A DNA stretch of 64,000 bases. Source: Planctomycetota bacterium (GTDB lineage: Bacteria > Planctomycetota > UBA1135 > GCA-002686595). The stretch spans positions 62,001-126,000 of the forward strand of contig NYUD01000061.1 of assembly GCA_002683825.1 (NCBI GenBank). The letters run 5' to 3'. Numbering within the stretch: the first letter of the stretch is position 1; the number at the start of each line of letters is the position of its first letter. The notes beneath the pieces were generated by a model. It ran no database searches. It was given only the letters and a program-made list of their open reading frames with translations, and had not been told where the DNA came from. Shown piece after piece: positions 43,342-47,499 of the stretch. The position numbers and the translations under genes were made by a program.

Positions 43342-44550
43342 TCAGGTCGCGTGTTTCAGGGCGTACTTGACCAGCTCGCGGTGTTGCTCGTGGAAGTCGT
43401 GCGATCCACCGGCCAGTGGAGACTTGAAGAAACAGGCCGTCTGGGGCATCTCGCCCGACTCGCCCTTGCGCGCGGCGAATTCCGCCAGACGGACGAGATC
43501 GATCACGAGCGGCGCCGCCAGGGCGGAGTCGCTGCCGGCCCAGGTGAACTGCAGGCTCATCTTCGCGCCGAGGAACCCCTCGAAGTGCACGAAGTCCATG
43601 GCCGTTTTCCAATCGTGCAGAGAAGGCACGAAGTCGATGCCCACCTGGGTATGGGTCCGGTCATCGCCCAGGATCTGGTGCAACGGGGCGTCCTTGTTGC
43701 GGCACTTCTTGGCACGGCGAAGAGGATCGCGCAGGGTCTCGCCATCGCGGTTGCCCAGCATGTTGTAGCCCTGCCAGGCCAGGACGCGCAGGGCGCGCTT
43801 TTGAAACATGGGGGCCAGGGCCGTCTTGAGCAGGGTCTCGCCGGTCTTGCCGTCGTTCCCGCAATGGGGAAGCCCCCGCTCGATCGCCAGCTGGCGCAGT
43901 GCCTCGATGCTCGAGCCGTGGTTCGGCGTGAAGTTGACGAACGGACAACCGGCGGTCAAAGCGGAATAGGCATAGAGGCTGGATGCCGGAAACTCGCCCT
44001 CCCCATCCAGCGCCTTTTCAAACGCAGCCAGGTCGTTCCAGTGGGGAGACTCTTCGATGGCGGGCTCCGCGCTGGCCAGGTAGACGACGACGACACGCCC
44101 GACGCCGGTCTCCCTCCGGAAGCTCTCGATGTCCTCGCGCAGTCGATCGACCTTGGCGCGTGGAGAGGCGCCCCCCATGGAGGCCGCGGCAGGATCCAGA
44201 TCTGCACGCCCCACTTCCGCCAGGTCGAGGATGCCCGGGCGAATCGAGGCGTCGAAGGCGGCGGCATCGCCGCTGCCGGCGGCCACCACTTCCGCGGGCA
44301 GGACGCCCGCCCGAACCAGTTCGCCGGCAACGGCCGTCGACCCGGCCTCGGCGATCTCGTGACCGCCCAAAACGATGGCGTCGATCCCGGCCAGATCCAT
44401 GCGATTCAGGGGGGAGCATTCCGTGGTCAGCCCGACCGGTTCCAGAAGCCCCTGGCGCAATCCGGACAGGCCGTAGGCCACGCACGTCGAGATCGCACCG
44501 CGCGCGCCGATCATCCACAGGCCGAGGGGGGGGCTGTCCTTTGCTTCCAA
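43342..44550 (-). CDS. ino1: Myo-inositol-1-phosphate synthase
   Basis: A 402-residue NAD-dependent enzyme converting glucose 6-phosphate to 1-L-myo-inositol 1-phosphate. The dinucleotide motif is LWMIGARGAISTCVAYGL. Other blocks are VVVVYLASAEPAIE, FVNFTPNHGSSIEAL, HCGNDGKTGETLLKTALAP (the N-D-x-K-T-G catalytic region), LAWQGYNMLGNRDGETL and the HTQVGIDFVPSLHDWKTAMDFV region; the serine/lysine-rich active site is intact. The start is TTG 44550, with no ATG close by. Inositol phosphate feeds phosphatidylinositol or mycothiol-like/osmolyte synthesis; no downstream gene of either is here. Confidence 0.9.
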   Translation of the reverse strand: MEAKDSPPLGLWMIGARGAISTCVAYGLSGLRQGLLEPVGLTTECSPLNRMDLAGIDAIVLGGHEIAEAGSTAVAGELVRAGVLPAEVVAAGSGDAAAFDASIRPGILDLAEVGRADLDPAAASMGGASPRAKVDRLREDIESFRRETGVGRVVVVYLASAEPAIEESPHWNDLAAFEKALDGEGEFPASSLYAYSALTAGCPFVNFTPNHGSSIEALRQLAIERGLPHCGNDGKTGETLLKTALAPMFQKRALRVLAWQGYNMLGNRDGETLRDPLRRAKKCRNKDAPLHQILGDDRTHTQVGIDFVPSLHDWKTAMDFVHFEGFLGAKMSLQFTWAGSDSALAAPLVIDLVRLAEFAARKGESGEMPQTACFFKSPLAGGSHDFHEQHRELVKYALKHAT

Positions 44551-45739: not shown

Positions 45740-46525
45740 CTACTTGGAAGCTTCTCTCGAGACGAGCGGCAAAGCCTCGGCCCAGGCCGGGGGCAAACGA
45801 GTCACGCGTCGGCGCGCGAAAAGCAGTCGGACCTCCTGGCCCCGGGGAGGAATCAACCACCCGTTCGGCGCCCAGATGTATTGATTCACGCATTCCTCCA
45901 GCGCCCCCGTCAAGAGCGTGTTGCCCTGGTAGAAGAACGTGATGTTGACCAGGTTCTCTTCGAGATCGGCGACGAAGCTGGGGGGCTGCCCTTCACGGAC
46001 GGCCGCAAAGCGCGACCCCAGAAAGACCCAGGCGTGGCGGCGCATCGCGCGACCGGTCTCGAGGTTCGTCAAGAGATCCTCCACCCGAAAGAGATAGATC
46101 TCACCGGCCTCCCGCCAGGCGACGTAGAGAAACAATCCCGAGTGCTCCCCGGCGACGGGCGGCACGATGCGCGCGGGCTCTCCGTCGCTCTCGACCGCGC
46201 GCGCATTCGTCCCCGCTTCGACGCCGAGTGCCAGGAGCGCCGCGTTCAAGAGGCTGGGCTTGACATGGGTCAGAAAGAGACTCTCGTGGGCAGCTCCACG
46301 CTCTCCGACGAGCAGGTATTCGAGCAGATCGTTTCGCACCAGAACCTCGGCCGGCACCGAAACCAGTCCGCGGCTCGGATCGAGCTCGATCCCTGTCCCC
46401 ACGAGGGCCTGGCGAAGAAGCTCCGCCCCGTCCTCGGCCGTCTCCTTCTGGGTCGCGGGCAGCCCGGTCCGAACGGCTCCGAGGCCGGTGCAAAGGGCGA
46501 GGAAAGGCAGAACAAGCAAACGCAT
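45740..46525 (-). CDS. Exported protein of unknown function
   Basis: About 261 residues with a signal peptide (MRLLVLPFLALCTGLGAVRTG) and a mixed alpha/beta mature domain, including LVSVPAEVLVRNDLLEYLLVG, GEIYLFRVEDLL and ENLVNITFFYQGNTLL. No known domain, lipobox or membrane anchor. ATG 46525 is chosen; an upstream TTG would put charged residues before the signal peptide. It is directly followed by the membrane-protein gene and probably functions with it in the envelope. Confidence 0.6.
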   Translation of the reverse strand: MRLLVLPFLALCTGLGAVRTGLPATQKETAEDGAELLRQALVGTGIELDPSRGLVSVPAEVLVRNDLLEYLLVGERGAAHESLFLTHVKPSLLNAALLALGVEAGTNARAVESDGEPARIVPPVAGEHSGLFLYVAWREAGEIYLFRVEDLLTNLETGRAMRRHAWVFLGSRFAAVREGQPPSFVADLEENLVNITFFYQGNTLLTGALEECVNQYIWAPNGWLIPPRGQEVRLLFARRRVTRLPPAWAEALPLVSREASK

Positions 46526-46600
46526 GGAAACTCCGTGGGACTTGCGATTAGGACCCCGCGCCCGTGGACTCAAGCAGCCTGCACGGAACCCGGTTCGATG

Positions 46601-47431
46601 CTACCCCCCCGCCTCGAGAGTCGCGCGCTCGATCCCGAGATGATCGAGGTCCTCCTTCAGGAGCTCGTAGACGGCTCCGGCGTAGCACCGGATCTCGTAC
46701 TGCGCTTCGGGCTTGAGTCGCTGGGACAGGAAGTGCAGGACCCCCTGGAGCGATACGGTCCAGTAGGCCTGGGTGTAGAGGTTCTGGGGCAACAGAATGC
46801 GTGCGATCTCCTTGGCGACACCGCGCGCGATGCGCTCTTCGTACAGCTCGAAGGCGCGCTCGTACTCGGCGATCATCGTACGGCGTTCGCCCTCGTGATC
46901 GAAATCCTGCGGCAGCTCCACCGAGGCTTGCTTGTTTCCGTGGGACGGGTTCGCCCGCATGCGCAGGGGCACGTAAAACTCGGGCGTCCACTGGACGTAG
47001 CGTCCCGAGATCTCATTCCAGCTGCACCCCTTGTCGGTGTCGAACATAACGTCGAAGGCCTCGACGGAAATCGACCGGCCGTCCGCCGCGTACTCGCGCC
47101 AGGTCGAGCCGACCTGGTACTTGAAGGCCTGACGGAATACGAACAGGGGCGCCTTCCAGTGGAACGTGAAGAACGAATGGCGGTACGGCGAGGTATGTCC
47201 GTGGGCCCACAGAAATCCGGCCAGCTTCCGATCTCCCTCCTCGAAGGTGAGCTTCTCCTTGTTGTAGGAGATCCGCGCCGCGTTGACGACCTTCAGGGCC
47301 GGGTCGGAGCGCATGCGATCCACGAGCGCCAAGAACCCGACGCCATCGTCGAGGGGAAAGCACGCTCCGTCGGGAGTCTCCAGCAGGGCTGCGCGACTCC
47401 TGGGTCGGATCTCTCGGGTCGTTTCAGACAT
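46601..47431 (-). CDS. thyX: Flavin-dependent thymidylate synthase ThyX with insertion in its signature motif
   Basis: A 276-residue homologue of ThyX, which methylates dUMP to dTMP with FAD, NADPH and methylene-tetrahydrofolate. Family blocks: PLFVFRQAFKYQVGS, NEISGRYVQWTPEFYVPLRM and LHFLSQRLKPEAQYEIR. Two odd points. The R-H-R of the R-H-R-x7-S signature reads K-Y-Q here, as in some phage-like versions that have K-H-Q. And about 27 residues (REYAADGRSIS through KGCSW) are inserted between the motif and N-E-I-S-G-R. Flavin- and dUMP-binding residues outside are kept. No ThyA gene is in the window. ATG 47431; an in-frame start at 47488 would add 19 residues. Confidence 0.85.
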   Translation of the reverse strand: MSETTREIRPRSRAALLETPDGACFPLDDGVGFLALVDRMRSDPALKVVNAARISYNKEKLTFEEGDRKLAGFLWAHGHTSPYRHSFFTFHWKAPLFVFRQAFKYQVGSTWREYAADGRSISVEAFDVMFDTDKGCSWNEISGRYVQWTPEFYVPLRMRANPSHGNKQASVELPQDFDHEGERRTMIAEYERAFELYEERIARGVAKEIARILLPQNLYTQAYWTVSLQGVLHFLSQRLKPEAQYEIRCYAGAVYELLKEDLDHLGIERATLEAGG

Positions 47432-47499
47432 GGTGTTTACTCGGCGGGACTCTTCGTCGTACATCCGGGGAGATCCGGGTCGGTTCACCCTACCTTCGG

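Follow-up and report, generated by a model that had tools for sequence, protein, structure and literature searches.

A probably functional lysine-type ThyX with a long inserted loop, common to a planctomycete family and uncultured viruses

ThyX, a homotetramer with its active site at the subunit interface, is discussed as an antibacterial target and is recognized in its classical form by the signature R-H-R, followed by a serine after seven residues. In the Thermotoga maritima member of the superfamily, Arg-78 and Arg-80 are named as conserved residues hydrogen-bonding dUMP in the consulted part of PMC3498832. R78 also stabilizes FADH-, lying opposite N1 and C2=O of the reduced flavin, and the active-site loop, residues 86-97, is mobile (PMC11940539, in part). 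S88, R90 and Y91 influence catalysis, and dUMP is activated by R174 (PMC8316439, in part). A lysine opens the signature in the K-H-Q or K-H-K ThyX of phages phiEcoM-GJ1, SNUABM_27, O4, Barba14A and VBP47, which have a 5-residue loop and a S-R-R-Y motif. K-Y-x forms occur in a Gram-positive set comprising phages 276BB001, NIIg9.7, Tomas and Mandalore and plasmids of Cytobacillus, Paenibacillus and Exiguobacterium. Finally, in ANME-1 archaea a viral thyX is described as displacing thyA (PMC9894754, in part).

The thyX homologue studied here belongs to a planctomycete and was found in a window of 64,000 nucleotides, the whole stretch of DNA that was analyzed. It lies at 46601..47431, the position given by an initial annotation made from the sequence, on the minus strand. 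It encodes 276 residues if, as we infer, translation starts at the ATG at 47431; a GTG in the same frame at 47488 is an alternative start, for a product of 295 residues. The 276-residue protein scores 123.4 bits against TIGR02170 (NCBIfam, cut-off 87.9) and 127.8 bits against PF02511 (Pfam, cut-off 24.8), both matches being split into two stretches. Thy1 is its sole Pfam family at E<=0.001, and PF00303 (ThyA) gives no match at this threshold. The first AlphaFold2 model, a monomer, superimposes on T. maritima ThyX (TM0449; TIGR02170, PF02511) with a Z-score of 19.6 and an rmsd of 2.6 Å over 212 aligned residues, and Foldseek matches the whole model to the same enzyme less tightly (TM 0.61 by query; rmsd of 5.7). 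A search of BFVD returned 25 matches at E<=0.001, headed by a Caudovirales ThyX with 32% identity. By profile and predicted fold, the protein is a member of the ThyX/Thy1 superfamily. It stands outside the narrow classical R-H-R group, having K-Y-Q as signature and S142 36 residues past Q106, as compared to 8 in T. maritima ThyX.

The replacement of the signature, already proposed in the initial annotation, is borne out by alignment with T. maritima ThyX, whose chain and usual numbering differ by 12, as derived from the alignment itself. K104-Y105-Q106 (47114..47122, minus strand) stands at the place of R78-H79-R80. From K-Y-Q to N-E extends a loop of 32 residues (107-138; 47018..47113, minus strand), where T. 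maritima ThyX has 4. The insert, estimated beforehand at about 27 residues, therefore amounts to +28 relative to R-H-R-IASY-N-E and +27 relative to the phage form K-H-Q-VGFSW-N-E. It parts the signature from an intact N-E-I-S-G-R-Y (46997..47017, minus strand), which corresponds to T. maritima residues N85-Y91, the start of the active-site loop (PMC11940539 and PMC8316439, both in part), and the remainder of ThyX is kept, again as the initial annotation had it. Window residues H79, Q101, N139, E140, S142, G143, R144, Y145, E208, R211 and R238 correspond to T. maritima H53, Q75, N85, E86, S88, G89, R90, Y91, E144, R147 and R174, and N163 is replaced by S227. In the alignments, the equivalents of H53, Q75, N85, E86, S88, R90, Y91, R147 and R174 are all kept. 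Since the mapped catalytic residues are retained, the active site is altered rather than lost. Moreover, the 28-residue insert lies between two active-site segments, and because of this placement a role in the active site is likely. Among 17 solved ThyX sequences, it is absent from all five for which an alignment was shown.

Two AlphaFold2 runs on the monomer, one with 47 sequences (mean pLDDT 80.7) and one with 106 (81.9), both draw a β-hairpin in the loop, with strands 109-116 and 119-126 and a turn at the conserved G118 (47054..47107, minus strand), in a block where pLDDT is only about 46-67. The predicted hairpin is followed by a D-T-D-K-G-C element (residues 131-136; 47024..47041, minus strand). 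In an alignment of 106 rows (67 from the 75 family sequences, 39 from the 60 viral loci), K104, Q106, D131, D133, G135, C136, S137 and W138 are invariant, and Y105 and K134 each deviate in a single row (105/106). Many hairpin positions vary, unlike K104, Q106, D131, D133, G135 and C136. The viral rows were mostly found via a seed spanning D-K-G-C, so that their lack of variation in this element is partly built in; every family row contains a second seed as well (PLFVFRQA), and the same-family homologue search of 37 genomes was seed-free.

The STW and CSW flanks of the insert had been taken to suggest a partial duplication, an idea that the data do not support. A search of 46990-47140 for direct DNA repeats gave none. 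Compared with shuffled sequences, the two flanks are similar at p<=0.05 in 38 of the 103 rows from the family and the viruses (median 0.135), the window's own row giving p=0.02. Loops of relatives at the same place measure 10, 12, 16, 18, 19, 32 and 45 residues. Rather than a duplication, this series looks like a growing loop, with the window protein at the long end.

An alignment with the phage K-H-Q enzymes, suggested by the initial annotation, shows that the lysine is shared and that, in three of the five K-H-Q/K-H-K phages, K-H-Q is followed by V-G as in the window protein. The latter differs by its 27 additional loop residues and by S-G-R-Y in place of S-R-R-Y. The K-Y-x enzymes are similar to the window protein in having K-Y, V-G-S or the like, a lengthened loop and a tryptophan before N-E; unlike it, they have loops of 10-16 residues, lack D-x-D-K-G-C and carry S-S-R-R-Y. 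More generally, 1226 phage and 239 plasmid records gave a match, and identity at the best place stayed below 60% in all of them. Of these, 19 phage records (from 1226 and 1234 in two scans) and 3 of the 239 plasmid records were hand-picked for inspection: 6 of the 22 are of the R-H-R type, with loops of 4-5 residues, and 16 of the K type, with loops of 4-16 residues. D-K-G-C is present in none of the 22. Within the part of the ThyX literature covered by our search, itself seen in part, no description of the K-Y-Q/long-loop form was found.

In the planctomycete family (f1), a homologue is found in 36 of 37 genomes, including the window's own, with 67-76% identity in the 35 others; G028 is the one without. 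The K-Y-Q/loop motif was read directly in 29 of the 36. Together with the invariant positions, this argues that the signature and the insert result neither from chance nor from an assembly error. Only weak matches were obtained in other families of the same order, in 2 of 24 genomes. As a DNA pattern, D-x-D-x-G-C-S-W-N-E occurs in 22 of 392 Planctomycetota genomes, which are all 22 sampled members of the family, and in none of the 370 genomes outside it. A seed scan of an 84,980-species collection gave 74 loci; where their titles name a group it is always planctomycete, the others saying only 'bacterium'. Outside the family, the type was found, in the collections scanned, only in IMG/VR viral contigs. 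The downstream neighbor (45740-46573) recurs in at least 45 of the 74 loci, the upstream HEAT-repeat gene in at least 31, HEAT matches being unspecific, and the gene at 43342-44550, which we take to be an inositol-3-phosphate synthase, in at least 35, all counted in flanks of up to 3 kb. One family copy (G035:C27:11199-11984, L018) has an in-frame TGA.

Gene content bears on whether the enzyme works. ThyX is present in 69 of 73 family genomes, and those showing none (G028, G066, G074 and G082) are 64-81% complete. ThyA and DHFR are each detected in 1 of 73 (G027 and G077, respectively) and a TK-type thymidine kinase in none of the 23 family genomes examined. The initial annotation saw no other thymidylate synthase in the window; this holds and extends to the whole genome (G000, 92% complete), where a search for thyA gave no PF00303 match at E<=0.001. 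Given that ThyX is nearly universal in the family and that ThyA, DHFR and thymidine kinase are almost absent, the gene is very probably working and usually the sole thymidylate synthase. Over all 121 surveyed genomes, ThyA is found in 23, DHFR in 22 and both in 21, a co-occurrence expected for the other pathway; that genomes with thyX often lack folA is a known pattern (PMC9931769, in part). In addition, five pairs of the window gene and relatives gave dN/dS of about 0.17-0.30 (Nei-Gojobori, dS 0.65-1.07): the thyX of the family is under purifying selection. Judged on sequence, we therefore hold with good confidence that the gene is an active thymidylate synthase of the planctomycete family, the only one in nearly all members, and a K-type ThyX variant.

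A seed scan of viral contigs yielded 60 loci of the family's type. A scan seeded outside the loop retrieved 21 viral contigs, of which 20 were known already, all with a loop of 32 residues. The new one, L265, has K-H-Q and an 18-residue loop ending in D-T-D-S-G-N-S-W. It lacks the lysine and cysteine of D-x-D-K-G-C; hence K134 and C136 are not required by every related enzyme. The L265 gene (6131-7801, minus strand) also contains an intein-like insert of more than 250 residues between H-T and S-P-F-R-H. In whole-protein scans of the viral contigs, the window protein retrieved 1 locus and that of L160 retrieved 2 (its own contig and that of L163). No viral contig showed an insert-free K-[HY]-Q-x-G with four residues before N-E, but this negative carries little weight, the spacing being one residue short of the K-H-Q phages. 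In L111 and L113, the two contigs inspected for gene content (L111 by Pfam domains, L113 by likeness), the gene sits in a replication module, with a DNA polymerase A gene on one side and SbcD/SbcC-like genes on the other. Another L111 gene was tried as a phage-host link and set aside, its matches in 32 of 61 genomes being short and weak (best E 1.4e-10, G028). By its sequence, the family thyX shares its type with the viral contigs, and we are dealing very probably with a family-wide functional ThyX variant common to uncultured viruses.

Trees were built with the signature and the loop cut out. The first contained 72 rows, including 17 of the 75 family sequences (window plus 74 loci) and 29 of the 60 viral loci. 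For the wide-outgroup tree and the AU test, 12 of the 72 rows were dropped as long branches, short or R-H-R (S-CBS4, NP1, L174, L162, L170, L172, L173, CindyLou, Lorelei, Orchid, RcBigEagle and P74-26); in the nearer-outgroup tree 7 outgroup rows were kept and L265 was added. The family forms one clade (SH-aLRT 99 in the first tree, 100/97 with the wide and 99/96 with the nearer outgroup) and groups with the viral rows (98, 100/99 and 100/100). Together with the K-type phages and plasmids, this larger group is separated from the R-H-R rows with an SH-aLRT of only 88, the K-type outgroup being drawn from phage and plasmid collections only. L111, L113 and L114 are closest to the family (92, 99/96 and 99/92). 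As for the direction of transfer, in the trees as searched the family falls within the viral rows, albeit with long-branch warnings on the wide- and nearer-outgroup trees (L164 with L265 in the latter), and viral loops are more variable (18, 19, 32 and 45 residues) than those of the family, which have a single length in the 17 rows used. Both observations speak against phages having taken the gene from planctomycetes, which we regard as only rather unlikely; viral monophyly with the family outside is nevertheless compatible with the data, at p-AU 0.649 with the wide outgroup, where the constrained tree was 5.4 log units better, and 0.0985 with the nearer one.

The enzyme would be a ThyX that uses FAD and NADPH to methylate dUMP and gives back tetrahydrofolate. 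It groups with the K-type ThyX sampled from phages, plasmids and viral contigs. In these enzymes K-[HY]-x takes the place of R-H-R, and N-E is often preceded by a longer loop; in the family and its viral relatives this loop is predicted to form the β-hairpin, then D-x-D-K-G-C. At the flavin, K104 would supply the charge that R78 provides elsewhere, a role that a lysine could fill given that R78 stabilizes FADH- (PMC11940539, in part). The work of H79 and R80 near FAD and dUMP may fall to Q106 and D-x-D-K-G-C, with K134 and C136, and the hairpin might pack over the flexible active-site loop where the subunits of the tetramer meet. A β-hairpin and a D-x-D-K-G-C element would in this way replace the lost arginines.

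This reading competes with others. The protein may be an ordinary ThyX in which K-Y-Q and the long loop are neutral decoration without catalytic meaning. The range of loop lengths among relatives (4 to 45 residues), the low confidence of the hairpin model, the retention of the remaining mapped catalytic residues and the lack of the K and C in L265 all fit such a view, which we nonetheless find rather improbable, because K104, Q106, D131, D133, G135 and C136 are fixed in 106 rows, the viral ones partly seed-chosen, and because the change is located between two active-site segments. Arg-78 and Arg-80 are described as binding dUMP (PMC3498832, in part), and without the pair the reaction might be weaker or altered. 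The main product could be another pyrimidine than dTMP, for instance a ribo or hydroxymethylated compound. The fold is shared with PolB, which methylates UMP/dUMP (4p5a, Z 17.0), and two viral relatives hold the gene in a replication module; however, most family genomes examined show no other thymidylate synthase or TK-type kinase, which makes dTMP from this gene most likely and the alternative product very improbable. Finally, loss of signature residues and the in-frame TGA of the G035 copy could indicate a degenerating, inactive gene, but given the dN/dS of 0.17-0.30, the family-wide retention and the failure to find a replacement enzyme, this has next to no chance of being correct.

Returning to the rebuilt-site reading, we propose, tentatively and as somewhat less than an even bet, that the family lives on a ThyX derived from tailed phages, in which the arginine pair is gone and the hairpin and D-x-D-K-G-C, perhaps via the invariant Lys and Cys, do its work. 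If so, ThyX catalysis would not depend on the R-H-R signature held to define ThyX. A bacterial family apparently dependent on an arginine-less ThyX would show that the arginines are replaceable, and offer a natural test of how flavin and dUMP are held. It would also be another probable case of close virus-cell exchange of an essential thymidylate synthase, beside ANME-1 (PMC9894754, in part). There too, the chromosomal thyX of a lineage lacking thyA is closely linked to viral thyX, and a viral origin is proposed; the ANME-1 enzyme differs in being archaeal, and the consulted part of that paper mentions no signature change.

Several further observations concern thymidylate synthesis around this family. 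Within it, G027:C115 carries an additional ThyA, G077:C372 a DHFR and G080:C252 (L174) a second ThyX, of the R-H-R type; each may reflect acquisition or contamination. On the Exiguobacterium plasmid pMC2 (L237), a K-Y-V type thyX adjoins a predicted dfrE gene. In the same order, thymidylate synthases differ between families: f1 has the K-Y-Q ThyX, f8 an R-H-R ThyX, f4 a ThyX and f5 mostly ThyA with DHFR. In G038 (family f3, 93% complete), ThyA and ThyX were not found and a TK-type thymidine kinase is present. Families f6 and f7 mostly show two Thy1 matches. In 21 same-order genomes (G041, G046, G053, G103 and others of f6/f7), two such matches are found near each other on one contig, in frames of 534-1224 residues, consistent with a tandem-duplicated ThyX.
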